Made by a program: the position numbers and the translations under genes. A stretch of 64,000 bases of DNA. Origin: Arbacia lixula. Its lineage: Eukaryota; Echinodermata; Echinoidea; Arbacioida; Arbaciidae. Shown piece by piece: positions 30,890 to 61,521 of this stretch (positions within the stretch are counted from its first letter, which is position 1; each line of letters begins with the position of its first letter). Under the pieces are notes generated by a model that saw only the letters and a program-made list of their open reading frames with translations, did no database searches and was not told where the DNA came from. The DNA is taken from contig OZ022596.1 in the NCBI GenBank assembly GCA_963669155.1, positions 8,795,603 through 8,859,602 on the forward strand. The letters are read 5' to 3'.

Positions 30890-31160
30890 CTGTAAAATGA
30901 ATAGACATGAAACTACTTAGGGACTCATGTCATCCGACAAAAAACCCTCACGTCCGTCGACACTCTAATAGTAGCCATCTTGTTACTTTCATTAATGACG
31001 GTTTGTTTAATTGAATGTGAAAAAGAGCAATAAGATTATTCAACACCGGCTGATGTAATACTGATACAAGTCATATAAATAATGATTTCAAGAACAGGAA
31101 GGGAGAAGGGAAGGGAGATATAGAATGAAGGGAAGGAGAGGAAGAGAGTTAGAGCGATGG

Positions 31161-31191
<31 letters not shown>

Positions 31192-32050: not shown

Positions 32051-34980
32051 GCAAAAATCACACTACTCAAATGATAGCGTGGACCTTTTTCTGTGCATTC
32101 AGCATGTTCAGTATGGAATGAGACAATGTACGATTTTGCTTTTATTAAACATGGTAATGTTTTCGTTTTGCATCGCGTGTATGACTCCATTCCTGCTGTT
32201 TTTTTTTTTTTCATTCTGTGCAGGAGACCTGGGTTCATAACATGTGTTAATGTCTTTGTTGTGTGATACTGCTGGTGACACCTCGATCGAACCATCACGG
32301 AACCTTCGATATTACTGCGACATTATAGAAAAAAACATATGAAAAACACTTTCTTCATCAGGTTCATGTTAGCTTATCAAGTTCAGAGAGAACGCACGGC
32401 AGCAATGTTACTTGATAACCCTGTGTATGAGCAAGCTCGTAGGCTACACGAAACATAAACCATGTCGCCCTCTCGTGACGTGTGTATGTATAATTAAGTA
32501 AAGTACTAAACACAAAGTTTGGACAACCTGGTTTTATTACCTGGCAATATGGCGCATATTGTGTTGGTATCTTTTTGCTAACCAAAGCAGCACGTGATGT
32601 TATGTTTCTACCTATGAAAACCGAGTCGCCAAACTGTGTATAAAGGGCTCTGCTCTAAACATTATCATAGTAATAGTTTTGAATGGGGTTATTTATGCAG
32701 AATGTTTGAGCAATTGTGAGTCCCCCTATCCTTATGGTGGAAGGGTTTAATTGTTTGTGGTTCCTTCATTTTCACGTTTATCTATATATTACTTTAATTA
32801 AACAATTCCTTGAATTGAACATTCACTGTTTTTTCTTTGATCATGATATGACAAATTGTTTATTTTCATGATGTGTTGTAAAAGAGAGAAAAGGTTTTTA
32901 TACAACATACATGTAACTGTATTTATAATCAAAACGAGACATACTTGTGGACAAGTATAAGGTGGTCTGCATTGGCAAATTTATAGGGCCTACACAGATA
33001 TCAAGGAGAACTGAATCAATGGCTCATTAAGAGTTCAATTAAGTAAAGGTAGAAGTAAAGATGATGCAAACCGTGATCATGGTAATTAATTTTGCCAAAA
33101 GGGGGCTCCTAGAGCAAAACCAGTGACAGCAACAACAATCGTTAACAACTGACTGAATCATTCTGCATTCAGACGGGTCCCATTCTCGGTTGATTTCATG
33201 ATTACGGGAAGGTATCGTCTACAGATAAAAAAAAAGTTAAAATCTAACATATCAAACGACAGCGGGACGTATAATCATAGCAACCATTTTCTTGTCTAAT
33301 CTTTATCTGACAATTGTGGTTGCAGTATTAGGAAAGAATATGTGTGGATCGTAGGCTACCTGGGAATATAATGAGACCCGGGGATTGATTTCGGATGTTG
33401 ATAAAGTTATTCGTTGGTTGAATGCCTATGTAGAGAGGCACGTGTTCTAGGGAGGGTACTAAGCTAAAACTAGTTTCAAGTCATACCTATCAGTATGGAT
33501 ATAGGCTACCTGGGAATATAATGAGACCCGGGGAGTAATTTCGGATGTTGAGGAAGTTCTTCGTTGGCTCAATGTTCTGGGTAGGGTAGTCTTGCAAGAA
33601 CCCCCCCCCCCCCCCCTCCCACACCCACGAGGTCTGATGCCAAACATCAAATTACTAGAAGACAGGTGAAACGATAGCGTCGACATTTTGCTGTGCATTC
33701 AGTATACATGATACCGCTCTTTATAAACATGACGAATGGTTTCGTTTTGCCTTGCGTGTATGACTCCGTTCAGTTTCTTCCTGTACCGGAGACCAGAGCT
33801 CATAACATGTTTTTCCTGTTTTCGTTACACTTTACTTTTGGTGACACCTCGATCGAAACATTACATCACCCTAGATGATATTGCGACATGTATTAAGAGA
33901 ACAAAATGAATAGCATTTTCTTGATCATGTTCATGTTAGCTGATATCAAGTTGGTATCAACCAGATTTTCTTTAAAGACTGCCTGCCTTACATTTGTTAC
34001 CTTTAAATCACATTTCTCTTTCTACCTCACTTACCTTCTCCAAAACACAGTCTATTTGTTCAGTTTTCTTTCTCTTTCCTCCATCCAAGAAAATTAATTG
34101 CCTTTTAAACATAAAACAATAGTTGTTCAAGGAATCTCCCAAGCTATGTTTGTGGCAATGCAATATTTGTATTTCAAGCAGGAAAACAAAATCAGCGGTA
34201 ATGCACTGCGGCAATGTATATATAACCTGGGCACAAACGCACCAATGTCTCATGAAAAGTTCAAGACATAAAAGTGATGGTAGTGGTAAAGATTATGGGA
34301 ACAACAGCAGTGACAACAACCGTGTATGCTTAATGCAGACATGCACGTGTTCTCGGAAGGGTACTAATCCCCCCCCCCCCCTTCTCCCCCTCCCCCTCCA
34401 ACTCCTCCCTCAATTCCCAGCTTCAGATAATAGTTTTTGGTTATTACGTTAGATCAATCTTAATTGTCTTGACCCGCGCACGCAAACTTGAACTCAATAC
34501 AGTTTCCTTGAAATGACGTTATTCAGTGGAATATATCACAAAATTGCTCATTATGACTTTAGAAATGTCTTTGGTAGAAGTTTTCAGAATGTTTAAGGGC
34601 TTCTGATCTTAATGGTAAGAATGGTCGGGTGCTGAGTTTCTAGTCAGATAAAGGGTGAGAAAGAGAGAAAATAGTGTTCGTCCCATCATGGGACCTTCAA
34701 TGATATTGCGTCATACATGAAAACAAATGTTTGCTAAGAATTTTAGAAATTAGAAGCACTCGATAGTTTGTGTGCCATTCAAGAACTGCACAAAGAACAA
34801 ACGCACCAATGTCTAATGAAGAGTTTAAGGCTTGAAAGCGATGTGTGGTAGAGATTAAGGAAACAACAGCAGTGAAAACAACCGGGAATTCTTATGTAAA
34901 CAGGCACGTGTTCTCGGGAGGGCACTAGCCCCCCCCCCCCCCCCCCCCCATATACTTGTACAACACATACTTGAAATATA
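32051..34980. repeat. Composite repeat blocks M of unit C, with relic TRIM 3' flank
   Basis: It holds 85-bp segments near 33356 and 33505, C-runs (33601-33616, 34369-34381, 34929-34949), and at about 32455-32960 sequence homologous to the 3' flank of TRIM A (7290-7740), although no TRIM exon lies beside it. 33650-34980 is paralogous to 51807-53150 of unit D. No gene is seen. Confidence 0.55.
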
Positions 34981-36356
34981 CTTTCTCTCCACTCTTTCTC
35001 TTCTTTCTATTATTTTGATCTCTCTGTCACTCTCTCTTCCTCCCTTCTCTGTCCATCCCTCTCTCTATCTATCTCTCTCTTCTCTTAAACTGTTCATATT
35101 TTCACCTTTTCGAATTCTTCTTCCTCTGTGCTTCACTCTCCACTCCCTCGTTCTGTTTTCTCTTTACTCTGTCCCTCTCTCTTTATCTCTTTTGTTCTCT
35201 CCCCCAACATCCTTCCTATCTGTCTCCCTCCCTGTCATACATGTCGTATTACACACACGTTTTTTAACCTTTGCTGTGTCCACACCTGGGCAGAGAAACG
35301 ATAAAGACACCCAGAACTGATTATAATCTACATATACAGAGCGTTCTTTTAGCAATGTTTAATACATGTGCAAGTGGAAACAGATTCTGATATGGCAGAG
35401 CACCGCGCAGGTGACGTCACGAAGTGAGAAAATATTAATTTTTGTATCCTTTATCGGATTTTTATGAAACCTTCACTTATCTTTGTTTTCATGTGTCTGC
35501 GTTTATTGAAACAAACTCAATTTCAGGGTGAACTATCATACTATTTATGCTGAGCATATGAATTATGAACAAGATAACTCCAACTCTTCTTACTTCTAAG
35601 TTTTCCCCTCTACTTTAGCCCCATGACTATCAACTCTATTCGGGGGTGAAGTCTAAATTAGCATATACATTTAGGATATGGAAGAAGCTAGGGGTGTGGC
35701 CTCTGCCTGGTGGCTTGACTAAGAGGCAGTTCTGGGAAGTACATGTATAGATGGAGGTATGTGGTCAATTGAGGGTTTTAGGTGGTTTAGGTGCAAGAAT
35801 GTTTAGAAAGTGGTCTTATCAGGAATAGATTAGTATAAATGTAAAAATAAAACCACAATAAATCATGACCAAGAGGCAGTTCTGGAAAGTACATGTATAG
35901 ATAGAGATATGTGGTAAATTGAGGGTTTTAGGTGGTTTGGGTGCAAGGACGTATAGAAAGTGGTCTAATCAGGAAGGGGGTGAGGATTAGTATAAATTTT
36001 AAACGTTATAAATACTTTTTCTTTCTCTTCACCCTCTTCTTTCTCCACCCTTCATCTATCTGCCTTTCTTTCTCACTTCCTGTCCCTCTCTTTCCATATT
36101 TCTCTTCCTCTCTTCCCCTCACTCTCACACTTTTCCTTTCACTTACCCTTCTATTTCTTCATATCTCCCCACTATGTTCCCCTATACTGCCACCTTTCAC
36201 TCTACCATCACCATCCCTCTCGTATCTCTCTATCCTCCCTTCCCCTTCTCATCTCTATCTCTCTTTAACTTTTTTGAAAGCGAGTCTCCATCCCTCCCTT
36301 ATATCTCTCACGGACAAGCAATGTTTCTAGTGTCGTCAAAAATACGTCAATCTTAC
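34981..36356. repeat. Partial block P, tandem repeats of about 150 bp and pyrimidine tract
   Basis: A CT-rich stretch (34981-35220) is followed by GACGTCAC-containing repeat DNA (35410) and then by tandem copies of a unit of about 150 bp (from about 35690 and 35845; a third, diverged copy lies at about 36475-36650) with the core GTACATGTATAGAT. A pyrimidine tract (36005-36270) leads to the distal first exon. Unit D has the same order at 53151-54542. No gene is seen. Confidence 0.55.
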
Positions 36357-40030: not shown

Positions 40031-41553
40031 CTCAATTCAGTCTAAGAGTATAAAGCGTTCTTTTTTACAGCGTTTATTAATGAGCGAGTAAAAATAACGG
40101 TTTCTGACATACAAACATAACAAGATCTGCATCTATAATGTCTTAATCCCGATAATGTAAGCAGGTGATAAGAGTAATACGTGGAGGTTTGATATAGCAA
40201 AACACCATGTGGGATAGGTTACACATATATTTAAACTCATATTTAACTCTCCGTTTAATCTGACAAATTGCTAATGGTTGAAACGCTAAGAAACACAATC
40301 ACGTTCATATGTGACAATGATGGTTTACACACATTGCAAACTGATGTTACCTAAAAAACGTTGACCCTTTGACTAGTATACATGATATACACAACACTTA
40401 AGCGGACTGACAAGATAAGATTTAGACAAGAGAACACATTAACAGTTGCGAATTTTTTTTGAATATCAGGAAAATACACAATTTGGTGATAGACTTTGTA
40501 CATGAAAGTTTGAATTGAATACTATTCATTAAAACACGCAAGAGTAGTCCTAACAGAGGATTATGAAAGTTTCACATAGAAGCATTGCTAATGAACTGCA
40601 ACGTTATCGCGATTGGTAAAATGATTTATACTCTACATGAATGTCATACTTATTACGCTGGTAATTCTTTTTTTGGCAAAATTCAATTTGATAAATGTAT
40701 TGATATCGTCTAACGGGTACAACCAAAATAACCCTGTTTTCAAGTTTCACCACATTAACAGTTGTGAGAATCTCTACTGTAATATCAATATCAGAAAAAT
40801 GCACAATTTTTTGATAGACTTTGTACAAATAAGTTTGATTGAAATGCTTGTTAATAAAACACAAAAGAGTAGGCCTTACAGAGGATTCAGAAAGTATCTC
40901 ATAGAGCCATTGCTGATTGGCAAACATGATTATACTGTACATGAATATCTTACTTATTACGCTGGTAATGGTTTAATTCCAAAATTCGAAGTTTAATCAA
41001 AGTTATTATAACAATATATATGAACGGTAATGATAATCATTTGTCTTGCAATGTGTGGTGAGCAAGGAATCTAAAAATAACACGTCCATTGTGATTATTG
41101 ATAACGATTAACACTAGCGATTATATTCACAATGAGTAAAATATATTGCAATAAACATGAAATTTACATTAGAGACAGTGTCCCAATTACAATAGTCATT
41201 AAACTAGGCACGAATCGGCTGTAGACCCTAACGATAACGCGTATGAAATTTCAGTCATAGCTTCACGAACATTTTCAGGAAAAGTAAAAAAAAAATATCC
41301 CTGTTTACGTTTAAAACGCGGCAAGCACAGTCTACATTCATAATCACATTGTCCCTGCCAGCGCGCGATGCAGTGCATTGCTGCCATTGAACGCATGCAC
41401 TGTGATGCAAACCATAGCACAGTCTGCGGTCTCCAGTGTCTAGGCTGTATCAAATGTTTCGGACAACCCGCCCAAAAACACTCAATCTAGAAAACGCTAT
41501 AATATAGCTTCATGCAAGTTTCCAGTTCTATTTTTGGGAGGGAAGTTCTGATA

Positions 41554-42068
41554 AACCCTTTTCTCACTAGGTTTTCTTAGCCCCGTACTATCCTTAGCCC
41601 CGTACTACTTTTTGAAGCTTTTCACACTTGCATTTCTTAGCTCCGTACTATTTCTTAAAACCGTTCTCACTCGAAATCGTTAGCCCCGGACTTTCTCGAC
41701 AGCTTATGAATTTTATGAGTTTACCTCTTGCACAGCTGCTCTTTACCACTCCGCATCAAGGTCACTCGCCCGTCGGGCATTATCTGATTGGTCCCGGCGT
41801 TTCGGCCTTGAGAGCTGACACCGCATTTCCTTCATTCTATTTTTCGTTTCTGTTCTCACTTGCGCTCTTAGCCCCGGACTGTTTGTCTTGGCCCTGCAAT
41901 TGAGGGGTTGGCCCTGCTTTTTTGAAGGGGCTATCCCCCTTTGCTAAAAGCAAGTGAGAACAGAAATTGGTCTAAGCTTAGCCCCGTACTATAGGTGGGG
42001 CTAGGTCCCCCCTTAGCCCCACCTATAGTACGGGGCTAATGTAATTTTTGCCAGTGTGAAAAGCATAA
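41554..42068. mobile_element. TA-flanked element made of bipartite iterons (copy 2)
   Basis: It lies at the same place as the unit C copy, with the same ends, the same TTAGCCCCGTACTAT repeats and the same right-end hairpin. It therefore inserted before the C/D duplication and was copied with it. Flanks read CTGATA at the left and ATACAG at the right. Confidence 0.82.
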
Positions 42069-43111
42069 TACAGTCTTTTCTTCCATTTTCGTGTTATCAC
42101 TAAATCTTACTTTGTCCATGACTTGCAAACGGAACACTCTATCTTTAAGCTATGACCATAATGAAAAAAATATAAAACCTTCGACAACATACAAAGTACA
42201 TTATTTGACAACTTCAGAAATAGTTGTACGAACAAACGTAAAAAGTGGTGTATTTGCAATGTGCATCAAGTGATAATCTTGATAAAAACTTACAATACAG
42301 TTGAGAAAACAGCTGTCAACAAACTTGTACATTTTATGGACAATTAGCATCAATCTTTAATTGTAAGGATAAGTACCTGTACGTATATTTCATTTTTCAA
42401 TATTCAAATTTACATACACCATTAAAAATATATAGTATTATAATTGTTGTGAGCAATTTTCTTTTGGATAAATCAATTCAATTTTTCAGACTTGCAACAG
42501 GGATAGCGTGTTTTAGCCAATATTTTAGTCATATATAAGGTTATCAAAATACATGCAATAATAATGTAACAAGACCTTAATGCAATAACGAAGTGATACT
42601 ATAAAGACACGTACTAGACATTCAACCTGTGATATAAATCATTAGTATTGCTGTGATCATTTGTATTGGGATATAATGAGAGTTTATTAATTCGACAGAC
42701 TTGCAGCGAATGCGTGTTTTTTCAGCCAGTATTTCACTCGTATATAATGCTAAGTGTTGCCTGTGGATATTTAATAACGACAAGGCCACTTCTAAGCACG
42801 TAAATTAATTGCAAGAAGATAGAATAGCAAAGATGAGTCTGCCTATTTTGCAGACACGTAGTCACTTTTGGCAGCTAAAACATGATTGTGATTGGTTTGA
42901 TCAGACCATGAGCTATTACCCATGGAGTGATGTAACGTATTCTGACACCCGCCTGCCTCAGCCATTGAATTCACAGTGAAACACTTGACATGCTTTTGCC
43001 ATTTGATGTAAGCATGGTTAGCGTGCATCAGTAATGCTGTATTATAAACCATGATAGAAATATAAATGCTACAGCCTACGCAGAATCTTATATTTACTCA
43101 CATACCTGGAT

Positions 43112-43273
43112 TTGAATGGATAAACAATCTTACATTTCACTATAAATAAATGTCTTCTCGATCCGTTTTCTATAACAATTGATCCGTTCAAGAAAGGACA
43201 TGTAAACATGATGTGTAAGTCATGTCTGATAGCAGCTTTGAATTCAGACTGTTCTCTCCATTTCCCGTCATAT
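43112..43273 (-). other. Candidate orphan exon or gene fragment in unit D
   Basis: Paralogue of 28007-28168 with the same open frame, the same acceptor-like and donor-like edges, and four base differences. Too short and isolated for a functional call. Confidence 0.25.
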
Positions 43274-44443
43274 CCTATCACGTCACAAAATCAAGAGTAA
43301 TTTTTACTTTGATCAGGTTAAATCATTTCTTTAACGTATGTGCTAGTTTCTGGAACACTCATTTAATACTCTTGTGTAAAATATTATAATTGTTCTGCGC
43401 GTCTTTACCGTTAAAGATCCTTTCAGATAGGATCTTGCCTTTGATAAAAACACCTACACAATCTGAATTTCTCTACTGTGGTCAGAGAAAGATATTCATT
43501 GACAGTCCATCTCTCCTAGGTCAATTACCAGACTACGGCGTGGTTTTGCTTTTTTATGGTACACCACTGTGCAGTATAGCTGTATCCTAGTCCACTGACT
43601 AAAACTCTTTTCCGACTGACAGTTAGGGGTTATGCCTGTATGCGTGCAAGTACAATAGAAACGTCAACGATCTTAACAGTACGACAACGAGGAATACTGA
43701 CACAAGAATCATATAAAGACAGAGTCAAACTTAGCAAATAACATTTGTATAACACGTGAACTCACCATTAATTTCCGTATGGTGAACATGCTACACTTTT
43801 GCTACACATATTGAGTTTTGTGTGTAAAATGGCATATAATACATGGTCATTTATATGCAGGTCTTTCAATACATTAGCAAGTACAGTCCTGGAGAGTGTG
43901 CTGGTTGTAATGTTAAAATGACATACACTCCTGTGAAATCTGTGAAAAAATCGTGAAAGACTTGTTCCGATCATTATTAGGCTAAAACTCAGTCTGCCCT
44001 AACTAGGCAACCAGGAGAGAGTACTTTAAAAAAGGGAAAATCAAAAGGTTCATTCTAAAAGTTGAAGTTCATTTTCTTGCCATGTCGCCCTCTCGTGACG
44101 TATGTATGTACACACACAAAAATCCCGTTAATGGTATGTGGCTATAGACAGTGATTTAGATCTGTTGATCTGGGTTATCATATGGAGTCAATGAGCAGTT
44201 TTCAGTTTCAACATCATTATTGTGGGAGTTCTGGCTCCTTCATTTTCAAGATTATTTGCAACTCATTTGCATCACTATAATCAAACAATTCATTGAATAC
44301 AACATAATGTTATATTGTTGTAAGGTGATTATAATATGATACATCGTGATATTTTTTCTCAATGGGCTGTGAAAGAGATGAGAAGTCTTATCCAAAATAT
44401 GTTAAATGTTAATTATTAGGACGGCTCTATGCATGCTCTAACA

Positions 44444-44449
44444 TTTATT
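44444..44449 (-). promoter_or_regulatory. Poly(A) signal AATAAA, TRIM D
   Basis: AATAAA on the minus strand about 204 bp past the TRIM D stop, conserved with B, C and E. Confidence 0.5.
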
Positions 44450-44652
44450 TACAAAGTAACCAATGATTTGAGTATTGTTCATGAACCAATTTTACTTTTT
44501 CCCAAACCATTACATATTTATTACACGAACATCGGTTTTAAACTCAACACTCTTAATAAAAATAGTATAGCATGATTTAAAATAAGGGGAACATCATTAA
44601 TGACGTAATGGAGTTATCCGATCTGTCCATGTGAATAGTGACTCTTAGTTAT

Positions 44653-46542
44653 TTATTGAGTCGTCACATCAGTGAGAGAGACTTGTTTCTTACGGAAGAT
44701 GTGTAGTTCTGACTGCGTGCACAGAGCGATCTCACCCGTTGAGAATTCCCTGATAGCGCGTATCGAGTCATTGATAGGGTAATTAGCAAGGACTCTCCTG
44801 ACGAGCTTCAGCTGATTCGTGTACAGATCGACATTCCCCCGATCATCCTTCCGCCATCCAATCAGGATGTTGTCATCCTGCAACACAGCAACGCTCGCAC
44901 CGAAGCCCTCATTGCTGACGTCACACATCACCTTACCCTCTCTATCCACCACTCTGACTGATCTGTAATCACTCAGTACCAGCATCTCGCTGTGATTCAT
45001 GGTACAGACTGTGTAAGGTTTATACCCCGGACAAGGGATCTCCCTGACTGGTGCCCCACCCTCTGGAGTAAACACATGTACTGTCCTAGCATTACTACAC
45101 CCTACATAAATACGATCGTTTCCATCGACATCCATACCTCCGTATTCATCAACACCTTCAAACTCTGCTGTATTGATGCTACCCCATGTCTGTGAGTAGA
45201 GAGATATCCACCTATTAAAGTTACGTACTACAAATCGGCCATCACGCAAGACTGACACACGGTGGACCGACACACCCTGCAGTCTTCTCACCTGTAATCC
45301 ATTCACACTGCACACCTCTACACAACCACGAACAACAAACACACCCGCATATCCCACCACCATCTTCCCATCACGCGTGGCTGCCAAGCTGCTCGCGCAC
45401 ACGCCAGTGAGGGCCACTTCCTTCTCCTTCCCCAGGCGCCACTGTTTGAAGCTCAGCTCACCCAGAATGTGCTTAGCATCAAGCATGTACGGAGTGAAAG
45501 TCAGACACGCAACCCGACGCGCAATTTCTTTCGCTTTTTCTGAATCATCCCTTTTTGCACTAGCTAACAAGTCCTGTAACCTTTTACACAGACTATCATG
45601 AACAGATAATGTCTGTCCCTCGAGCACATTTTCTACTCCCTTCCCAATCAAATCATTAGCACTGTTGATGCAAGCGACCTTCAAATCTCGTTTCTCCCTA
45701 ATTTTGCGCACCTCTGCTCTAAACTCCTCTCTATATGCATTACACTCCTCGATTAGTTTATCTCGCTTCTTTGTGAGCAGAGTGAAGTGTTGCTTCGCTG
45801 TCTCCCACGCTTCGTTTATTTTCGAGATGATGTTGTTGAGACATGGTTCAACTTTTTGTAGCTCCTCGTCCCTTAGGTCAATGCCCTCTGTTTCCTCAAT
45901 ATTGATGGATTCCATGAAAGCGTTTACCCGACTTTGAAGAGATGCGATCTGATCTTGTATTTTCTTCATGTATTTTGTCACATCTTCAATCTCGTGATCG
46001 GACCCACCGTGGTCAAGCACACGACATCTAAAACATATAGATTGTTTACATGACGTACAAATCCATTCAATTTCCTCTTGCAGATGTGTAGCACAGTTTC
46101 GCTTGATTTTCACCCTCCCACTAATGACGTCATCAATGCTCACTAAAACGTGACTTGCAGTGAGTTTGAACTTCCTGTGATCATCGACGCACGACTCGCA
46201 CAAGTAGTGATTACATTTCTCACAGTAACATTGTGCCGGTGATTTAGTGTTATCCTCGATGTTACAGATTGTACAGATCTGTACTCCAGATTTAACATCA
46301 GTAATCATCGACTTGAGAGGAATGTTTGTTTGGAGCTTCGAGACATCGCTTTGTTTTAGCGGAGTTGTCTTGCGACAGAGCGGACACGCTAGCTTACTCT
46401 TTTCCTCCTGTGATTTCAAAAGGTCTATCAAACACTTCATACAGAAAGTGTGACTGCAAGCTAGAAGTTTTGGCTCCTCCATTAACTTGAAACATACACA
46501 GCATTCCAAGCCCTGCACTTCTACGGTATGTCTGGTTGCCAT
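44653..46542 (-). CDS. TRIM-family E3 ubiquitin ligase D, full length (629 aa)
   Basis: Full architecture with all RING (14-56) and B-box (90-132, 151-184) ligands intact, coiled coil and six propeller repeats. I start at MATRHTVEV, 8 bp after the acceptor GCAG/ATAACACA (exon from 46550). An in-frame ATG at 46596 lies in the intron and would add 18 residues with no counterpart in A or B. The protein is mosaic. The N-terminal two thirds match B. Around the fourth blade it reads like A (NDRIYVGC, YKPYTVCTMNHSEML). The last 90 residues match C (VMCDV, YPIN, RKKQVSLTDVT). The intron is 1950 bp and the first exon starts at 48501. It is probably an active ligase, inferred from the intact ligands. 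Confidence 0.93.
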   Translation of the reverse strand: MATRHTVEVQGLECCVCFKLMEEPKLLACSHTFCMKCLIDLLKSQEEKSKLACPLCRKTTPLKQSDVSKLQTNIPLKSMITDVKSGVQICTICNIEDNTKSPAQCYCEKCNHYLCESCVDDHRKFKLTASHVLVSIDDVISGRVKIKRNCATHLQEEIEWICTSCKQSICFRCRVLDHGGSDHEIEDVTKYMKKIQDQIASLQSRVNAFMESINIEETEGIDLRDEELQKVEPCLNNIISKINEAWETAKQHFTLLTKKRDKLIEECNAYREEFRAEVRKIREKRDLKVACINSANDLIGKGVENVLEGQTLSVHDSLCKRLQDLLASAKRDDSEKAKEIARRVACLTFTPYMLDAKHILGELSFKQWRLGKEKEVALTGVCASSLAATRDGKMVVGYAGVFVVRGCVEVCSVNGLQVRRLQGVSVHRVSVLRDGRFVVRNFNRWISLYSQTWGSINTAEFEGVDEYGGMDVDGNDRIYVGCSNARTVHVFTPEGGAPVREIPCPGYKPYTVCTMNHSEMLVLSDYRSVRVVDREGKVMCDVSNEGFGASVAVLQDDNILIGWRKDDRGNVDLYTNQLKLVRRVLANYPINDSIRAIREFSTGEIALCTQSELHIFRKKQVSLTDVTTQ

Positions 46543-46550
46543 TGTGTTAT

Positions 46551-48500
46551 CTGCGAAATATACAAACATGATATTGTATTGAATAAATGGGGACATTTAT
46601 CATCCTCTAACCAAACATGACGTTAGTCAAAGCTCCAATAGAAGTAGTCTTACTAAACTTCTTGTTTTGTTTATTTAAATGTTAGCAATAAGATAATGAC
46701 ATCAACTCTCTAGGCATGAGACGCAGAAAAGACAGCGAGTGAGAGGAGAGGAAACGAAGGCAGAAAACGAGGATTACAAGGTCAAACAAAATGAAGGACG
46801 AGGCGAAAAAGCCGAGGAAGATGAAAAAAAGAAGAAAAAAAGAAGAACCAATATTTAAAATCTTGCAAATTGTACCAAGCACCAATTACTTCGTTGAAAA
46901 ACTCTTTTTCATGAATCTTAAACAAAACAAATTATATAACAAATATTTGAACGGGTTTTTTAAAAGGATTTTAATTTTTACAATTTAATAAAAGAAAAGA
47001 GCGAAATATATATAAATTTCCTCCCCAAACCCAGGTTGATACACATGGGAGTAAGACAAAATTCATAAAAGACATATCAATAATAATTACCAGAGCAGAA
47101 AGGTAGAGAAAGAGGGGGTAGGGGGGGGGGGGTGGGAGGAGATAGAATGAAGAAAAGGACAGAGGGAGGGGAGAGAGAGAGAAGGATATACGTAGAGTGG
47201 GGGAGGGAGAGGGAGAGAGAGAGGGGGGGGTAGAGAATAAAGGATTCATTAAATTCCGAAACAGTTGATATCATTAATGGGCATAACGATTTTTAATACA
47301 AGTGTTACATACAAGGTAACAATACGTGTTCGACCATGTCTTATCATTACAAGTGCGCAAAGGGAGAGGGAGAGAGAGAGAGGGGGGAAGGTTAGGAATA
47401 TGATTGCATGATAATATCCGTTCACTCAAGAAAATGTAGTAATACGAATATAATCATGATGATACCAAGTCTATGAAGACTATATAGCGTAAGAAAAGAC
47501 AACAGACCCCACTGTGCACCACACCTGGCAATCCACTAGCACTTGCCTTCACAGTGTCATTGACAATGTACATGTATAATATTTCTAGCAAAAAAAAAAG
47601 ACTTTGTGGGTTAGCATGTGTGATGTACAATGGGCGTTGTTTTTTAAATTCATGGACTGATTCACATGAATCTGTAGGTCCAAATCTGCCTCAAAGTCAA
47701 AAGTGAAAACGTGTTTAAAGGATTATTACAAAAATGATAATTGATGAAATGTCTTGAAAATCGACATCCTTTGACATTACAAGGTAGATTTTAGTTTTTA
47801 TTTGAGATGTAAATTTGTTTTATTTCATTAAATGGTCCTTCACATATTTTCGACTATGTGTTCGTGTTTCCTTAATTCTAAAGATATGCAATCTTATTGC
47901 AACTGAACAGCATCTATTGAAGGAAGAAAATGAAAAGACGGAGGAGGTGACAAGAAATAAGAAGATAACGAGCAGGAAATAAAGCAGGAGGAGAAGGAGT
48001 AGCATGAGAGAAGGGAAGAGCGGGGAGATAAGTTATTAATGAGTTTGAGTTAGATGCCGCGGAAGTTTACCAACTGGTGATTTTATATGAATAATCCTCT
48101 GCCTTTGTCTTACACTGTCTCTGTAATTCCTTTCTGACCCTGTCTCTCCTCTCTCTTTCTTTATTTCTTCTTTATTCCCCATCTCCCATTCTTGCCCGAA
48201 TTCTTTGTTTCCTATTCTCTCCGCCTTCTTCTCCCTCCATCCTTCATCTTTCTTTCCGTCTTCCTCTCTATCTCTCCCTAAATGTCTGTCTTTCTTTTCC
48301 TCTATTTCTTCCCCTCACTCTCACACTCTTCGTTCTACTTACCCTTCTATTTATCCTTATCTCTCTATTTCCTCACTTTGTTTTCCTCTATATCCACCTT
48401 TCACCCTCCCGTTGCCACCCTCCCGCAATTATCTCTCCTCTTCCCTCCACATCGTCGTCATACAATAACGAAGAAATAGTTCATATGACGCCAATCTTAC
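46551..48500 (-). other. Intron of TRIM D
   Basis: Bounded by GTAAGATT and a CAG acceptor. It has A/G-rich DNA (46760-46850, 47095-47235) and a pyrimidine tract (48120-48450). It is closely similar to the B intron, in contrast with the C-like DNA on both outer sides of the unit. Confidence 0.75.
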
Positions 48501-48601
48501 CTTGATCAGCAGTTAGAACCACAAGTCTCTGACTTCAAACTTTAGCTTTCCGTACGACGCACACGCTACAAAATTGGTGTTGTGACGTCAGCTTCTATTG
48601 G
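48501..48601 (-). promoter_or_regulatory. TRIM D promoter (CCAAT, CRE) and non-coding first exon
   Basis: On the minus strand CCAAT (48597-48601), TGACGTCA (48583-48590), then a presumed 5' UTR ending CTGATCAAG at the donor GTAAGATT (exon end 48501). It is nearly identical to the B module. Confidence 0.7.
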
Positions 48602-50497
48602 TCTACCCCTGAAGGACAATCAGGTCTACTGTCCAGTTTTGAACTAACTTTGACAGAATTTATGTCAATTGTAGTCTAAAATAAACGTATTCGAAGTCTG
48701 ATGCAAAAATCGCAATACTAGAAGACAAGTGAAACGATAGCGTCGACCATTTGCTGCGCATTCAGTATGGAATGATACAACGCACATGATACCGCTCTTA
48801 TTAAACATGGTAAATGGTTTCGTTTTGCCTCACGTGTGTTACTCAGTTCCTGCTGTTTTTCATTCTGTGCCGGAGACCAGAGTTCATAACATGTGTTAAT
48901 GTCTTTGTTGCGTGATATTACTGGTGACACCTCGATCGAACCATCACGGAACTCTTGATATTATTGCGACATTATATGAAAAACACATGAGAAGCACTTT
49001 CTTCATCATAGTCATGTTAGCTTATATCATGTTCAGAGAGAACGCACGGCAGCAGTGTTACGTGATAGCCCCGTGTATGAGTATGCTCGTAGGCTACACG
49101 AAACATAAACCATGTCGCCCTCTCGTGACGTGTGTATGTACAATCAAGTAAAGTACTAAACTAAGAGTTTGGACACCTTGGTTTTGTTGCGTGGCAACAT
49201 GGCCCGTATTTGTTGGTATCTTTTTGCTAAACATAGCTGCAGGCGTTATGTAACTACTTATGAAAATAAAGGACTCTTCTCTATTCATCTACTTTTGAAT
49301 AGGATTATTATACAGAATGGTTGAGCAATTGTGAGTCTCACTATCCTTATTGTTAAAAGGGTTTGATTGGTTGTGGTTCCTTCATTTTCACGCTTATCTA
49401 TATATTACTTTAATTAAACAATTCCTTGAATTGAACATACACTGTTTTTTCTTTGATCATGATATGACAAATTGTTTATTTTCATGATGTGTTGTAAAAG
49501 AGAGAAAAGGTTTTTATACAACATACATGTAAATGTATTTATAATCAAAACGAGACATACTTGTAGACAAGTATAAGGTGGTCTGCATTGCCAAATTTAT
49601 AGGGCCTACACAGATATCAAAGAGAACTGAAATAATGACTCATTAAGAGTTCAAGTAAGTAAAGGTAGAAGTAAAGATGATGGAAAAGGTGATCATGGTA
49701 ATTACTTTTGCTAAAAAGGGGCTCCAAAAGCAAAACCAGTGACAGCAACAACAACCGTGACCATGACCGAATCATTCTGCCATCACACGGGTCCCATTCC
49801 CGGTTGATTTCATGATTACGGGGAGGTATCGTGTACAGATAAAAAAGAAAGTTAAAATCTAACATATCATACGACAGCGGGATGTATAATCATAGCAACC
49901 ATTTTCTTGTCTAAGCTTTATCTGACAATTGTGGTTGCAATAATAGGAAAGAATATGTGTGGATTGTACGCTACCTGGGAATATAATGCGACGCGGGGAT
50001 TGATTTCGGTTGTTGATTAAGTTATTCTTTGGTTGAATGCCTATGTAGAGAGCCACGTGTTCTAGGGAGGTTACTAAGGTAAAGCTACCCCTCCCCCCCC
50101 CCCCCCGCCCTTAGCGCCAGGTGATATTTTCCGGATAACTATGTAGGCAAGTTTAAATCTAAACTCACCCTAGAAAGCATACTTAATACAGTTTTCATAA
50201 CATGTGTTAATTCTACGACATTGTTAAGTGTAATCATGGACTCTACCACGAATTGTATAATATATGACCAATGTATATGTATGATTTTCAGAATTATTGG
50301 ATATCCACCTTAGAAGTGTGTCAGAATATTTAGGGGGTTTTTTCCATCTTAATGGTAAGATAGGCAGAGTGCTAGGTTTTCTAGTCATACCTATCAGTGT
50401 GGATATAGGCTACCTGGGAATATAATGAGACCCGGGGATTAATTTCGGATGTTGATGAAGTTCTTCGTTGGCTCAATGTTCTTGGTAGGGTACTCTT
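48602..50497. repeat. Composite repeat block M of unit D
   Basis: 48602 to about 49230 is B-like and 49230-50490 is C-like. It contains relic TRIM 3' flank (49105-49600), 85-bp segments near 49970 and 50408, and a C-rich run near 50090-50105. No gene is seen. Confidence 0.55.
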
Positions 50498-51471
50498 ATC
50501 TCATATCTCACTGGCTGGACATCTCGTGTTAAAATACCAGAGCAAGTTTCAGCTCCTTGGACTTGCGAATACGGTGTCCCTCAAGGGTCTGTTATGGGCC
50601 CTATACTCTTCAATGTTTATATCACTCCTGTGTCAACTATAATTCGTAAGCACAATCTTTTCTATCTTATCTATGCCGATGATATTCAACTATATGATGC
50701 GTTTAATCCTCGTTCACCATCAAGTATGCAAGAAGTGTTAGAAAGAATTTCGTTATGTATTGCTGAGATAAACACGTGGATGACTTCAAATTTCCTCAAA
50801 CTAAATGTTTCTAAAACTGAATTCACTATACTATATCGGAAAAACCAATTCAATGAAAATCTATCCAACGTAAAACTCAATGTATGTGATAATGAAATTG
50901 CACTATCCCCTAAAGTTAAGAATCTTGGCATATGTATTGACTCGTGCTTTACACTCTCATCTCACGTCAGTAATATTGTACGTACCTGTAATTTCCATCT
51001 TAAGAATCTGTGGCGCATTAGATGATTTATCAATGAAAAAAACTTGCCATCATGCAGTTAGGGCACTTGTACTTTCTCGACTTGACTATTGTAACAGTCT
51101 CTTTTCAGTTCTTTGTGTTAAAGATCAGAAAAAAACTTCAGAGTGTTCAGAATCGTGCCGCACGTTTAGTGTTTTCAGTTGGTCGCAATATACATACGTC
51201 TCCTTTGATTAGGGAACTCCATTGGCTCCCTTTTTCTCAACGTGTCAAGTTCAAACTTTGTCTGTACATTTATAAATTGATTAACAGTACTGGTCCTTCA
51301 TATCTTGTAAACAAACTTGTTATTCCGAAAACAAACCTCTCCATAGCAGAAAAACGTTTTAGTATAGCTGGATCTAGAGTTTGGAATACACTCCCCTCTT
51401 CCATCCGAACAACACCGACCATATCATCTTTCAAACGACAACTCAAGTCATATCTTTTTCCAAATATCTAG
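50498..51471 (+). pseudogene. Reverse transcriptase fragment, C-terminal half, disrupted
   Basis: The frame open from 50498 shows the RT signature YGVPQGSVMGPILF and then the catalytic YADD box (residues about 60-63 of the fragment). It ends at a TGA (51023-51025) in a place where related elements have arginine. The sequence then shifts frame in an A-run (near 51033) and again in a second A-run (near 51128). The remaining part carries the conserved region SRLDYCNSL and, after the second shift, LQSVQNRAARLV and ELHWLP, ending at a stop in 51471. With no 5' half, endonuclease or intact frame it is inactive. Confidence 0.9.
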
Positions 51472-53150: not shown

Positions 53151-54542
53151 ATATACTTGTACAGCACATACTTGAAATATACTTTCTCTCCACTCTCTCT
53201 CTTCTTTCTATTATTGTGATCTCTCTGTCACTCTCTCTTCCTCACTTTCTCTGTCCATCCCTCTATCTATCTCTCTCTTCTCTTAAACTGTTCATATTTT
53301 TACCTTTTCGAATTCTTCTTCCTCCCTGATTCACCACCCACTCCCTCGTTCTGTTTTCTCTTTACTCTGTCCCTCTCTCTTTATCTCTTCTTTCCTCTCC
53401 CCCCAACATCCTTCCTCTCTGTCTCCCTCCCTGTCATACATGTCGTATTACACACACGTGTTTTTACCTTTGCTGTGTCCACACCTGGACAGAGAAACTA
53501 TAAAGACACCCAGAAGTGATTATAATCTACATGTACAGAGCGTTCTTTTAACAATGTTTAATACATGTGCAAGTGGAAACAGATTCTGATATTTCAGAGC
53601 ACCGCGCAGGTGACGTCACGAGGTGAGATCATATTAATTTTTGTATCTTTTATCGGATTTTTATGAAACCTTCACTTACCTTTTTTATTTCATGTGTCTG
53701 CGTTTATTGAAACAAACTCAATTTCAGGGTGAACTATCATACTATTTATGCCCAGCATATGAATTATGAACAAGATAACTCCAACTCTTCTTACTTCTAA
53801 GTTTTCCCCTCTACTTTAGCCACATGACTATCAACTCTATTCGGGGGTGAAGTCTAAATTAGCATATACATTTAGGATATGGAAGAAGCTATGGGTGTGG
53901 CCTCTGTCTGGTGGCTTGACCAAGAGGCAATTCTGTGAAGTACATGTATAGATGGAGATATGTGGTCAATTGAGGGTTTTAGGTGGTTTAGGTGCAAGAA
54001 TGTTTAGAAAGTGGTCTTATCAGGACAGGGATAAAGATTAGTATGAATGTAAAAAAAAAAAAAAAAAACAATAAATCATGACCAAGAGGCAGTTCTGCAA
54101 AGTACATGTATAGATAGAGATATATGGCAAATTGAGGGTTTTAGGTGGTTTGGGTGCAAGGACGTTTAGAAAGTGGTCTAATCAGGAAGGGGGTGAGGAT
54201 TAGTATAAATTTTAAACGTTAAAAAAAAATACTTTTTCTTTCTCTTCACCCTCTTTTCTCACTTCCTCTCCCTCTCTTTCCATATTTCTTTTCCTCTCTT
54301 CCCCTCACTCTCACACTTTTCCATTCCCTTACCCTTCTATTTCTTCATATCTCCCCACTATGTTCCCCTATACTGCCACCTTTCACTCTACCATCACCAT
54401 CCCTCCCGTATCTCTCTCTCTTCCCTTCCCCTTCTCATCTCTATCTCTCTTTCACTTTTTTGAAAGAGAGTCTCCACCCCTCCCTTATCTCTCTCACGGA
54501 CAAGCAATGTTTCTAGTGTCGTCAAAAATACGTCAATCTTAC
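53151..54542. repeat. Partial block P, ~150-bp tandem repeats and pyrimidine tract
   Basis: The same order as 34981-36356 of unit C: a CT-rich stretch, GACGTCAC repeat DNA, tandem units (from about 53895 and 54075) with an A-run between them (about 54052-54069), and a CT-rich tract (54235-54520). No gene is seen. Confidence 0.55.
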
Positions 54543-55254: not shown

Positions 55255-56460
55255 GCTGCTCCTGACTTCACTCCGAATCACTGCATATACAGTGCTATTC
55301 AAAAGAAGAAGAGGACGACGATTTCCGTCTAAATAGAATATAAAGTCTACTGTCGGATTTTGGACTAACTTTGACACAGGATTTATGTCAATTCTAGTCT
55401 ATGGTAAACGTTTCCGAAATCTGATGCAAAAGTCAAACTACTAGAAGACAAGTGAAACGATAGCGTCGACCATTTGCTATGCATTCAGTATGGAATGATA
55501 CAACATACATGATACCGCTCTTTTTAAACATGGTAAATGGTTTCGTTTTGCCTCGCGTGTATGACTCACTTCCTGCTGTTTTTCATTCTGTGTAGGAGAC
55601 CTGGGTTCATAACATGTGTTAATGTCTTTGTTGCGTGATACTTCTGGCGATACCTCGATGAAACCATCACGGACCCCTTGATATGATTGCGACATTATAT
55701 GAAAAAAAAAACATGTGAAAAACACTTTCTTCATCATGTTCATGTTAGCTTATATTAAGTTCAGAAAGAACGCACGGCATCAATGTTACGTGATAACCCC
55801 GTGTATGAGAATGGTCGTAGGCTACATAAAACATAAACAAAGAGAACTGCCTCAATGGATCATAACGAGCTCAAGTAAGTGATGGTAGTGGTCAAGATGA
55901 TGGAAACCGCAATCGTTGTCAGTGATTGTAATTAAGGTTACGAAAAAAGGGTCATTATAGCCAAGCCAGCGACAACAACAACAACCGTGAACATGAGCCA
56001 ATCATTCTGCCATCATCACTGGTCCTATTCTCGGTTGATTTCATGATTACATGAAGGGATCTTCGACAGATAAAGAGAAAGTTGAAATCTGAAATATCAA
56101 ACGACACCGGGACCTACAATCATGGCAGCCATTTCTTGTCCAAACTTTATCTGACAATTGTAGTTGCATATCTGGCAATTGTGGCAATGCATGAGAAAGG
56201 AAAAGAATATTTGTGGATTGGAGGCTACCTGGGAATATAATGAGACCCGGGGATTGATTTCGGATATTGATGAAGTTCTTCGTTGGCTCAATGCCTATGT
56301 AAACAGGCATTGCTCAGTGTAATTTATATATAAAAAAAAAAGTTTATGTGTGATTTTAAGAACTGTTTCATATCTTCTGTAGAAGTGTGTCAGACTGGTT
56401 AAGGGATTTTTTTTTATCCAAATGGTAAGTCAGGCAGAGTGTTGAGTTTCAAATCCGTGT
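55255..56460. repeat. Composite repeat block M before unit E
   Basis: Closest to 2270-3412, with the 85-bp segment at about 56224. The empty TTAA site of the 37564 element lies near 55755. Minus-strand frames at 55477-55743 and 56047-56310 match those of the left copy but are broken elsewhere. Confidence 0.55.
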
Positions 56461-57075
56461 TGGCTTACCGAATGGTGGGTGACGATGCTTTGAAAAAACT
56501 GTATTTAAAAATATGAAAACAAAGAAGTAAATAGAATGTGGGAGCAAGAAAAAGAAGAACAAGAACAAAAGAAGAAAAAGAAAAGAGAAAAAAGGGAGAG
56601 GGTGAGATAGTGTGTGCGTTTGTGTATGTGAGGGAGGCGAAAGCGAGGGCAAAAACGTGTAATTATTTTGTGTTTATAATGAATAGTTCGATTTTTCCAT
56701 CTATCTGTCATTATCTCCTCCTTTTCCCTCTGTATTTTCCTCTTTCTCCTTTTTTTCACCCCCCCCCCGTCTCTCTATCTCGCTCCCTATCTTTCAATCT
56801 CTCTGTCACTCTTTCTAATTCTTGCTCCCCTTCTCTCTCTCTCTCTCCGTTCCCTTTTCTCTTCGTTCATGTCTCTTGTCAATCTCCCTCTCTGAACCAC
56901 CCCTCCCCGTTCCTCCTCTCTTTTCTATTACTCCTTCCCTTGCTTCGTTCCTCCGTCTCTTTTTCTTTCTGTTTATCTATTCTTTTCTCTCCACCAACAT
57001 CCTTCCTCTCTGTGTCATTTCTGGTCGTACATGTCGTATTTCAGACACGTTTTGGAAAAGTAAAAGATAAATAAA
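56461..57075. repeat. Block P of unit E, chimeric
   Basis: The purine-rich part (to about 56670) follows unit A in lacking AAAGTATCTGTG. The pyrimidine-rich part from about 56750 follows unit B almost base for base. No gene is seen. Confidence 0.6.
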
Positions 57076-60000
57076 TCCAGAACTCATTTCAATCTACGTG
57101 TACAAAGCGCTCTTTTAACAGCGTTTATTAATGAGCGAGTAAAAATAACGGTTTCTGACATACAAACATAACAAGATCTGCATCTATAATGTCTTAATCC
57201 CGATAATGTAAGCAGGTGATAATAGTAATACGTGGAGGTTTTTATATAGCAAGACACCCTATGAGATAGGTTACACATATATCTAAACTCATATTTAACT
57301 CTCCGTTTAATCTGACAGATTGCTAATGGTTGTAACGGTATGAAACACAATCACGTTCATATGTAACAATTATGCTTTACATACACTGCAAACTGATGTT
57401 CCCTACAAAAATTAACCCTTTGACCAGTACATGATATACGCACAACCTACGCGGACTGACAGGGTGACATTTCGACAAGAGTACACATTAAAAGTTGTGA
57501 GAATCTGTACTGTAATATCAATATCAGGAAAATACACGATTTTGTGATAGACTTTGTACAAGTTAGTTTGATTTAAATGTTTTTCACCGAAACACACAAG
57601 AGTTGGCCTTACAGAGGATTCTGAAAGTTTCACATAGAGCCATTGCTATTAAAAACGAACTACGACGTTATCGTGCTTGGTAAACATGATTATACTGTGC
57701 ATGGATGTCATACTTAATACGCTGGTAAAGGTTTATTTCCAAAATTCGATGTGATAAGTTTAATCAAAGTTATTATAACAATATAGATGAACGCTAATGA
57801 TAATCGTTTGTCTCTCAATGTATGGTATACAAAATATCGACAAAGATCACGACGTTTCGTGCGCCGTTGCAACACTTCGCCAGGTGTGATACAAAATTGT
57901 AGTTATCACTAACGATTATCACTAGCGATTATATCCGAATTGAGTAACCTATTTTGCAATAAACATGAACTTTACATTGCAGACAGGGTGTCCCAATTAC
58001 AAAAGTCATTAAACCCGGCACGAATCACATGTAAACCCTAACAATAACGAGTATGAAGTTTCAGTCATAGCTTCACAAACATTTTGAGGAAAAATAAAAA
58101 CATTATCACTGCTTACGTTTGAAACGCGGCAAAACATAGTCTACATTCATAATCACATTGTCTGTCAGCAAACAATGCATGGCGTCGCTCCCATTGCACT
58201 GTATCAAATGTTTTGGACAACCTGCACCAAGCCACTAAATCTAGAAAACGCTATAATCTAGCTTAAAGCCAGTTTCCAGTTCTATTTGGGGGAGAGAAGT
58301 TCTGATACAGTATCTCCTTCCATTTCCGTGTTATCACAAAATCTTATTTTGATTTTAACTTGTAAAAGGCACACTCTGTCTTAGTTTGGGCTATGACCAT
58401 AATGAAACATGTAAAACATTGTAGAACACACAAAGTGCATTATTTGACAACTTCAGAAATAAATGTACGTAGAAACGTAGGTGGAGTATTTGCAATGTGT
58501 AGCAATAAATAATCTCAATAAAAAGAGAACACAAGTGTGTAAGCAGTTTTCAACAGACTTGCATACATGTACATCATAATTATCAATCTTAAATTGTAAG
58601 GATAAGTAAACATGGTAACTATACGTGTATTTCATATTTAATATTTCAATTTCCGAATTTATATACATCAATTTGAAAACTGACGGCAATGTGGAAACAG
58701 GGTAACGAACACTTAACAGGAATTCCACTTCATACCTTATGGCGATAACAAAATGGTATATGTACGATAAAGACACGGACTCTAGATTCAACTTGTAGCA
58801 TCAATTGTTGCTGCGATATGAGCATTTTGTTTGTGATGAAATACAAGTAATCAATTTTACAGACTTGCAGAAATTGCGTGTAGTCACACTAGTCTGTGTT
58901 ACAAGACATAGTTGTGTCAGACTGGGTTGTGTCCATGCACCTCATTTAGTACCTAGGCTAGTAAGTATGGTTAGCGCCGCGTATCAGTAGGATGACATAT
59001 GAATTACAACAGAAAAATATATGGTAGGCCCTATAGCCCACACAGTAAATGCTCACAAAAAATATCTAAACTTGACTGCTCGAACAGTAAGTCATACGTT
59101 CTGTAATTAAGAAATGGCTTTGCGATATTAAAAAAAAAGAGAAAAATCTTGTAAGAATAAAAAATCCACGTAATTAAGTCTAACATGATGTGTATGCCAT
59201 GTCTGATAGCAGCTTTGAATTCGGACTGTCCTCTCCATTTCCCGTCATATCATATCACATCACACAATCACGAGTAATTGCCACTTGGATCAAGTACAAT
59301 CAAGTATTAATCCTCTTAACGTATGCGCAGGTTTGCGGAACACTTATTTGATGCTTTTGTGTAAAATATTACAATTTTCTGCGTTTTTTTCTTATTTGAG
59401 ATACTTCCAGATAAGACTTACATAATATCATGCCTTTGGTGAAAACACCGACACAATCTGCATTTCTCTGCAGGGGTGACCATGATAATATCACACAAAG
59501 TTATTCATGGACAGTCCATCTCTCCGAGGTCCATGATCAGACTACGGCGTGGTTTGGCTTTTTTCATGGTACACTATTGTGAATTATAGTTTTGTACAAT
59601 TCCACCTACTGAAACTTATTTTCGACTGACAGTTAGGGGCTATCATGCCTGTATGTGTTCAAGTAGAATAGAAACGTCAACGATCTTAACAGTACAACGA
59701 GGAATACTGACACAGCAATCATATAAAGACACAGTCAAACTTAGCAAATAATATTTGTGTTAACACGTGCATTGGTCATTACGAGCTATACACTGCGTGT
59801 GTGGTGAACGTGCCACATATTCCTGGAGCATATTAAGTTTCATGTGTAAAATGGCATACAATTAAGCAAATCTTAGAAGATACAACGATTTATAGTACAG
59901 TGCATTAGCATAAGCAAACCTAGAGAGAGTGCGGATATGGTGCTAGAAAAATAAACATTCTTGTGAAATGGCTGTCAAAATTCGTCAAAGACTTGTTCCG

Positions 60001-60660: not shown

Positions 60661-61521
60661 TCATTGACTCGTCACACTAGTGTGAGGGTCTCGTGTCTGA
60701 CGGAAGATGTGTAGCTTAGAACGGTCGCACAGAGCGATCTCACCCGTCGAGAATTCCGTGATATCATACACGAACAAATCGACACGGTAATCAGCGAGGA
60801 CTCTCCTTACGAGCCTCAGCTGATTCGTGTACAGATCGATATTCACCCGACCAAGCTTCAACCATCCAATCAGGATGTTGTCATCATGCAGCAAAACAAC
60901 GCGCGCATCGAAGCCATTATTGCTGACGTCAGACATCACCTTACCCTCTCTATCCACCACTCTGACTGATAAGCCATCACTCAGTACCAGCATCTCGCTG
61001 TGATTCATGGTGCAGAGTATGTAGGGTCTATACCCAGGACAAGGAATCTTCTTGACTGGTGCCCCACCCTCTGGAGTAAACACACGGATTGCCTCAACAT
61101 CCAACCCCCCTACATAAATATGATCATTTTCATCGACATCAATACCTCCGTGTATCTCATCATTTATCTCTGAAAACCAGTCATACGTATCTTCAAAGCA
61201 TTCAAACTCTGCTGCCTTGATTTCCTTCCATGTCTGTGAGTAGAGAGATATGCGACCTACACAGCCACGTTCTACAAATCGTCCATCACGCAAGACAGAC
61301 ACACCGTGGGCAAACACACCCTGCACCTTTCTATCCTGTGATTCATTCACACCGCCCACCTCTAACCCACCATCATCATATACCACTATATACCACTGTT
61401 CACCACAACGCTTGGATCCCAAGCTGTTCTTGCACGCGTTACTGAGGACGAGCTCCTTCTCCTTCTCAAGGCGCCACTGCTGATCAATGTCCTGCTCTTC
61501 GACAGGATGTTTGGTTGCCAT
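60661..61521 (-). CDS. Propeller-only TRIM derivative E (286 aa)
   Basis: The start MATKHPVEEQDID matches TRIM C and then joins directly to QQWRLEKEKEL, the beginning of the propeller. RING, both B-boxes and the whole coiled coil are absent, and six propeller repeats (about 16-275) remain uninterrupted. The first blade is diverged (SKRCGEQWYIVVYDDG), and a 14-residue insertion (about YDWFSEINDEIHG) sits before VDENDHIYVG. The acceptor ACAG/GAAACACC (exon from 61529) is kept as in C. No first exon is seen before the window end. It cannot ligate ubiquitin or dimerise through a coiled coil; a soluble ligand-binding role or slow decay are both possible. Confidence 0.72.
   Translation of the reverse strand: MATKHPVEEQDIDQQWRLEKEKELVLSNACKNSLGSKRCGEQWYIVVYDDGGLEVGGVNESQDRKVQGVFAHGVSVLRDGRFVERGCVGRISLYSQTWKEIKAAEFECFEDTYDWFSEINDEIHGGIDVDENDHIYVGGLDVEAIRVFTPEGGAPVKKIPCPGYRPYILCTMNHSEMLVLSDGLSVRVVDREGKVMSDVSNNGFDARVVLLHDDNILIGWLKLGRVNIDLYTNQLRLVRRVLADYRVDLFVYDITEFSTGEIALCDRSKLHIFRQTRDPHTSVTSQ

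Follow-up and report, generated by a model that had tools for sequence, protein, structure and literature searches.

The TRIM5-related genes of primates belong to another TRIM type than the genes treated here, with a B30.2 domain, and the SpTransformer genes of the purple sea urchin form a different family that is not TRIM. Young primate TRIM genes at a recombinationally volatile locus are outlined in one account as segmental-duplication copies with signatures of selection in the target-recognition region (PMC3228819); for the SpTransformer clusters, an account reconstructs the history from phylogeny and from gene/intergenic-region mismatch, and invokes duplication, deletion, ectopic insertion, indels and point mutation (PMC8634487). 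Among the papers listed by literature searches, none describes an NHL-type TRIM array like the present one, which is not proof of absence. The array lies in the sea urchin Arbacia lixula (assembly GCA_963669155.1, contig OZ022596.1, 8,795,603-8,859,602), where the 64-kb stretch analysed, hereafter the window, holds five tandem units, A to E, with all genes on the - strand; it is part of a larger tandem TRIM-NHL array with two gene classes. An earlier note on the window proposed that unit D is a reduced unit resembling C, restored by a 4.3-kb gene-and-promoter tract copied from B. Comparison with the rest of the array makes it probable (about 0.75) that an ordinary full-length D stands beside a recombined C in units shuffled by ectopic recombination, with no copied-in repair of a lost gene.

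Units and Gene Classes

The genome searched comprises 607 Mb in 590 contigs; the contig carrying the window is called C21 here, and further copies were found on the 50-kb contig C128 and elsewhere on C21, at 8.757-8.989 Mb, 7.54 Mb and 10.2 Mb. Unit analyses used A-E and 16 units outside the window (21 units, out of 30 loci from the genome search, in which L001, L002, L004 and L023 are D, B, A and C). The outside units on C21 are u0 (8,792k), k8770, k8757, k8873, k8887, k8898m, k8917m, k8930m, k8954m, k8971m and k8988m, named by their kb position, with the suffix m for the opposite orientation; the others are M7.54a, M7.55r, M10.2, c128_18r and c128_35. Ten more distant loci (L013-L020, L029, L030) were excluded from the unit analyses, 7 of the 10 being present in the protein alignment. 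A unit enters the cluster of a segment only if it covers more than half of it, place counts are lower bounds because the best 40 candidates were scored in each search, and in the 300-bp-window scan the C rows left of 38.9 kb and the E rows from 54 kb are self matches and were disregarded. Class F (full-length) has a RING, B-boxes, a coil, an NHL propeller and a separate 5' exon; class R (reduced), from which the RING and B-boxes have been lost in frame, has upstream and right-flanking sequences of its own. The genes are as follows:

44653-46542 (-): D gene, 629 amino acids (aa); RING, B-boxes, long helix (coil) and C-terminal NHL propeller; coding sequence in one exon
46551-48500 (-): putative D intron (GT..AG) from the 5' untranslated exon to the coding exon, splice consensus read from sequence
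29589-30881 (-): C gene, 430 aa, without RING and B-boxes, in frame; coil and propeller
17614-19491 (-): B gene, 625 aa, full-length class
8008-9888 (-): A gene, 626 aa, full-length class
60661-61521 (-): E gene, 286 aa, also without the coil

Changing Affinities of Unit D

A five-unit alignment, scanned in 200-bp windows and by block, confirms that D switches from C-like to B-like and back to C-like. The identity of D to C is 94.2% (40,828-42,600), 93.8% (42,600-43,900), 96.8% (43,900-44,652) and 93.4% (44,653-44,835); along the gene body after 44,835 the blocks stand at 83.0, 88.1, 94.5 and 80.2%, the promoter block at 87.8%, and the stretch 49,220-50,087 at 92.0%. Identity to B is 74-81% both in the final 180 bp of the gene and in the sequence to the left of it, 91-98% over 44,836-46,550, and 86.5-88.5% along the first intron half; the remainder of the intron together with exon 1 reaches 96.6-97.1% and the promoter 93.2%, and past 49,220 no alignment is possible. 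The outer likeness to C thus stands on the left (40.83-44.84 kb, 93-97%) and right of 49.22 kb (92%), but 49.23 kb does not hold as a point where D itself changes. Leftward this likeness ends at about 40.83-41.1 kb, D-C identity being 66-86% at 39.0-41.1 kb in 300-bp windows. A max-descent walk on D with C and B as parents gives a tract at 44,909-49,206, with a descent of 388, where 300 permutations reach at most 22.

The proposed B-likeness from gene to promoter is likewise present (86-98%), but A is equally near in the RING (97.3% to A v 97.6% to B) and the coil (95.3 v 94.9%). In the first half of its intron D is only 86.5-89% identical to A or B, where these two are about 96% alike, and at 46.55-47.48 kb it is only 85-89% identical to A, B and k8930m, though of the same intron class. 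That D and C have different histories either side of about 44.9 kb is borne out by approximately unbiased (AU) tests: a sister pairing of C and D is rejected at p=1.3e-6 for the coil, at 1.7e-4 for the propeller and at 0.007 for the block of promoter plus right flank. B and D are rejected as sisters in the promoter (AU 0.014) and the coil (0.005), which speaks against B as donor of gene and promoter; as sole donor, B is ruled out by the segment trees and AU tests. The tract is not nearer to B than to other copies throughout, and strongly so only in the propeller, where B and D group with a bootstrap of 100 in the propeller-block tree and a small B-D-specific piece is real:

45142-45600 (-): D stretch specifically B-like in the propeller exon, B nearest at 93-98% in 150-bp windows over 45,153-45,603

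The Type-I Flank and Propeller Tail

The left side of D consists of a 3' flank and the end of the propeller, of a kind called type I, which C shares:

40828-44652: D type-I 3' flank, 93-97% identical to C, u0, k8770, k8898m, M10.2 and c128_35, in the segments where present
44653-44835 (-): D type-I propeller tail, the last 61 codons, stop included
28000-29771: C type-I 3' flank and propeller tail

A genome search with D 43,200-44,652 returned seven full-length matches at ≥91%, D included, with 40 of 46 candidates scored; the next match stood at 73%. RING/B-box sequence accompanies the flank in six of the seven places, D among them, and C is the sole reduced one, so the left flank of D mostly belongs to full-length units and the supposition that D was formerly reduced is not supported. 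Over 41.1-44.7 kb, in 300-bp windows, C tops D's list in 2 of 12 and ties for first in a third; in the tree of the left flank D groups with M10.2 and c128_35 (bootstrap 63).

The D tail clusters with those of C, u0, k8770, k8898m and c128_18r at 92% linkage, and the tail tree sets the type-I units apart from the rest at 99. The C tail averages 92.5% to six full-length type-I units versus 83.3% to five reduced units. The reduced unit k8917m joins an A-type tail (93.0%) to a reduced coil (95.9%), and all four combinations of gene class and tail type therefore exist: F-A (A, k8887, k8930m, k8971m), F-I (D, u0, others), R-A (k8917m) and R-I (C, c128_18r). AU tests reject a single clade of reduced genes in the tail (3e-41) and, in the coil, a single clade of type-I units (9e-58).

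Unit C as the Likelier Recombinant

Because of the copies outside the window, C rather than D appears on sequence comparison to be the likelier recombinant. Two parts of C are concerned:

29800-30220 (-), approximate: C join of the type-I tail with the reduced-class gene
30686-34000: C reduced-class block, comprising the coil, the start of the gene, the sequence upstream and the right flank

The C coil is 94.8-98% identical to k8757, k8873, k8917m, k8954m, k8988m and c128_18r and 87% to M7.55r, versus 79-81% to twelve full-length copies; the reduced class including C has a bootstrap of 99 in the coil tree, or 100 with M7.55r. From 30,686 to 34,000 C matches k8873 in an unbroken, colinear alignment (96.2% over 3,347 bp), and left of the gene, over the 1.5 kb compared, k8873 shares with C only a piece of about 200 bp at 82%. 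The block is also about 95% identical to k8757, k8954m and k8988m over shorter blocks, and 90.1% to k8917m over 3,724 bp, the different tail of k8917m included. A genome search with C 30,600-31,800 found 7 places at ≥93%, C included, the c128_18r match being two adjoining pieces at 95 and 90%. In D coordinates the reduced-class tract of C begins at 44,852-45,255 in five triplets, and the painting changes at about 45.15 kb; in 19 of 20 triplet walks the signal beats all 2,000 permutations, the remaining one (A with k8887 and B) having p=0.016. The two sides of C have different nearest relatives and their topologies conflict significantly, as expected of a chimeric unit.

The Right-Hand Junction and Promoter

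The features on the right are these:

49073-49085: F-to-R state change at diagnostic sites in D, B, k8930m and c128_35
49111-49618: inserted repetitive element, about 508 bp
49619-50087: D right flank common to reduced units, k8930m and c128_35
22155-22165, approximate: end of homology of B to the D right flank, inside the insert

Up to 49,100, 15 diagnostic sites separate six reduced units from A, u0 and M10.2. D has nine F states, two R and one that is neither at or before 49,082, and then three R; k8930m equals D at all 15, and B and c128_35, which lack D's two early R states, change class between 49,072 and 49,086. D and k8930m have the R state at all 30 diagnostic sites from 49,631 on. 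In A, u0 and M10.2 the promoter block stops at D 49,103-49,110 and continues directly with D 49,618 onward, the insert being absent; the empty site is clean in u0 and M10.2, and 15 abutting empty sites were counted, that of A included with a gap of a few bases. Carriers of the insert are D, k8930m, c128_35 and seven close reduced units, with k8757 holding the first part, as far as the match runs; B has only its first ~110 bp, followed by unrelated sequence. These junction and insert states are common to B, D, k8930m and c128_35, for which reason the junction is probably older than the separation of D and B. The right end of the presumed tract, at 49.23 kb, is a break in B itself, where its homology stops, and not a change of partner in D, while the class junction at 49,073-49,085 is common to B; the left change is real, and the tract is thus not two-ended.

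The 49,220-50,087 block is 93% identical to D in C, 92% in c128_18r, and 91% in both k8930m and c128_35; over 49,619-50,087 k8873 and k8917m reach 91-99%. In the promoter (48.6-49.11 kb) k8930m is nearest to D (97-99%). Within the sequence that replaces the D-like flank in B there is a 245-bp inverted repeat (22435-22679 and 22820-23064, 90% complementary). The right flank of D also carries a reverse-transcriptase fragment at 50489-51025 (+) (RVT_1, E 1.1e-14), with a 97-99% copy at C128:2.5-4.5 kb; 50.7-51.6 kb has no match in the span of C or the other units compared.

Proposed History and Alternatives

In the favoured explanation, misaligned array copies would have been shuffled by ectopic homologous recombination, through unequal crossing over or conversion. 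D would combine an F gene, carrying the F-to-R right junction that it shares with B, k8930m and c128_35, with the 3' flank and propeller tail of type I, which full-length units usually have; C would combine the same flank and tail, joined inside the propeller exon, with an R gene and everything rightward. The 4.3-kb "tract" would then be the interval between C's join (~45.1 kb) and the older junction of B and D (~49.08 kb). As C belongs to the reduced class between these points and D to the full-length class, D resembles full-length copies generally, A and B included, and a 4.3-kb donor and a restoration are not required. The switch points, class memberships and shared junction can be read off the alignments; that C rather than D changed, and did so by crossing over or conversion, is inferred, and a crossover and a long conversion are indistinguishable in these data. 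Once copies outside the window are compared, a 4.3-kb conversion or double crossover restoring a reduced unit finds no support: of the earlier interpretation, the switch and the differing histories of D and C survive, but the restoration by a B-derived tract does not.

That a C-like, reduced D received a gene-and-promoter tract of about 4.3 kb from B is unlikely. The triplet walk confined to A-E and the identities fit such a transfer, the propeller joins B and D at a bootstrap of 100, and the left flank does not reject C with D; but RING/B-box sequence stands on six of the seven type-I flanks found, promoter and coil reject B with D, the gene class of C is foreign to its flank, and on the right the proposal is largely refuted by a junction and part of an insert common to D and B and by a 49.23-kb end that is B's break. 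Less probably than in the favoured explanation, but conceivably, D was made by a single crossover in the propeller exon, its left side coming from a type-I unit, possibly a reduced one, and its right side from a unit like B or k8930m; everything right of ~44.9 kb, right flank included, would then have arrived together. Promoter and insert do run unbroken into the right flank in D and k8930m, and D has a type-I tail but a B-like mid-propeller; type I with F is, however, the common state, so the combination as such needs no crossover, and with D at 88-96% (coil) and 92-98% (RING/B-box) to other full-length copies, a joint outside the propeller is unplaceable. A history without exchange, in which C lost its RING, B-boxes and exon 1 by deletion after duplication from a common C/D unit, is hardly credible: both C flanks are 92-97% identical to D, but the retained coil is 80% identical to D versus 94.8-98% to six other reduced units, and the AU rejection of C with D in the coil rules it out. 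Misjoined haplotypes or units could mimic mosaics in so highly repetitive an array, the more so as the unplaced C128 holds close relatives of both C and D; such an assembly artefact is quite unlikely, however, the same junctions occurring in separate units on C21 and C128 and the reading frames across the joins in C and D being intact.

Several results weigh against a recombined C beside an ordinary D. The permutations ignore site autocorrelation and tree shape, and the walk confined to A-E flags D much more strongly than C, whose descent with D and B as parents is 10 v a permutation maximum of 6. At about 44.95-45.15 kb (D coordinates) nothing is more than 86% alike to C, and a C+k8873 constraint over the whole propeller is rejected (0.002). 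In the left-flank tree C and D as sisters are not rejected (AU 0.455), and no unit matches D better than C does (97 v 95%) in the 750 bp adjoining the gene. The D intron is intermediate between two intron classes in the tree, and B with D is not rejected in the RING/B-box segment (AU 0.08). On the right, D at 49,111-49,219 is nearest to c128_35 (98%) and B (94%), not k8930m (90%), which differs from its k8930m-like promoter, so that the promoter end of D is itself mosaic; the reduced-class side of B rests on three sites and ~110 bp of insert. C128 is unplaced, and its two units may therefore be alleles or assembly duplicates.

The Gene Products and Propeller Variation

The array genes look like ubiquitin ligases, with putative E3 activity. 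Pfam RING models score above cut-off in A, B and D, and the B-box model PF00643 matches two stretches in B and D and one in A; C and E have no Pfam match at 1e-3, so neither RING nor B-box. Residues 368-620 of D are modelled as all-beta, with a predicted local distance difference test score (pLDDT) mostly of 80-91 and a dip to 57-62 at 401-420. The top Foldseek matches of this region are the NHL domains of Brat (E 1.1e-14) and TRIM2 (2.6e-14), and the sequence profile reaches TRIM2 NHL at 9e-4, Pfam NHL not being reported at 1e-3; on structure prediction and comparison, the C-terminal domain of D is an NHL-type beta-propeller. A and B align with D along its length, and a long helix is predicted at 225-328 (block pLDDT 30-63), which may correspond to the antiparallel coiled-coil dimer of TRIM proteins.

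Intact open reading frames of 623-629 aa are present in D, u0, k8898m and c128_35; k8770 is without the usual start (610 aa) and that of M10.2 is broken. Seven of the eight reduced frames are intact, beginning at the shared start motif and reaching the C-terminus of the family, which rules out the reduced genes as plain relics. The reduced-class coil nevertheless has a ratio of nonsynonymous to synonymous substitution rates (dN/dS) of about 0.97 (21 pairs), which could reflect relaxed constraint and speaks against function, so that, seven intact frames notwithstanding, any function of the reduced genes is putative. Among eight full-length copies (28 pairs) mean dN/dS is 0.84 in the propeller versus 0.26 in the RING/B-box region. 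Seventeen protein columns have at least five different residues, 16 in the propeller and one in the coil; only columns with at least 12 of the 15 sequences were eligible, which excluded those of the RING/B-box region, found in just eight. In the D propeller (44653-45430) the hypervariable columns lie at residues ~399, 441-445, 483-486, 526, 564-566 and 589-595, and many of the 16 are ~42 residues apart, roughly one blade, a spacing that would fit the loops of successive blades. By analogy with TRIM biology, the propeller may serve in target recognition, perhaps immune. It is rather unlikely, though conceivable, that the array shuffles NHL propellers in such a way that exon-internal recombination moves tails between RING-bearing and RING-less genes and yields matched RING-less decoy or brake partners; a RING-less partner with a ligase's own tail could dimerise with that ligase via the coil.

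Other Features of the Array

The array turns at C21 ~8.892-8.893 Mb: listed copies are + up to 8,892,274 and - from 8,893,078, with the exception of one weak + piece at 8,898,245. C128, exactly 50,000 bases long and unplaced, holds a reduced and a full-length unit ordered as C and D, and C128:1-50000 is possibly a second haplotype or a further array segment. Interrupted reading frames occur in L006 (k8887), L009 (M10.2) and L027 (k8954m); k8887 is 97-99% identical to A from the tail to the region before the NHL propeller and 95-96% in the coil, B-box and RING. Another mismatch of flank and gene is found in B (13227-16938) and E (56212-59953): their 3' flanks are 94% identical, with several windows at 99-100%, although the genes differ in class. 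In two right flanks, at 35716-35996 and 53917-54210, a unit of 150-162 bp is tandemly duplicated (~1.8-1.9 copies), and degenerate telomere-like TAACCC repeats lie chromosome-internally at 1063-1143.

Comparison with Known Systems

Five neighbouring copies told a convincing story of restoration by conversion; with more of the array read, the neighbour became the likelier recombinant, and one tract end proved to be a break in the presumed donor, B. The locus is an NHL-type TRIM array in which units recombine in a fast-changing, presumably target-binding domain, a pattern comparable to that of immune gene clusters. As in the TRIM-NHL proteins TRIM2/TRIM3 and Brat, a RING and B-boxes are present, together with a propeller that matches the Brat and TRIM2 NHL structures; unlike these, the genes here form a tandem, fast-diverging set in which some copies are without RING and B-boxes. 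With the young primate TRIM genes, as far as that account describes them (PMC3228819), the array shares TRIM copies arising by duplication and a diverging region that presumably binds the target; it differs from the primate TRIM5-related set in that the NHL propeller is the part that diverges and the recombination joints lie inside the propeller exon. Like the SpTransformer clusters, as outlined in their account (PMC8634487), it is a clustered, fast-changing family.

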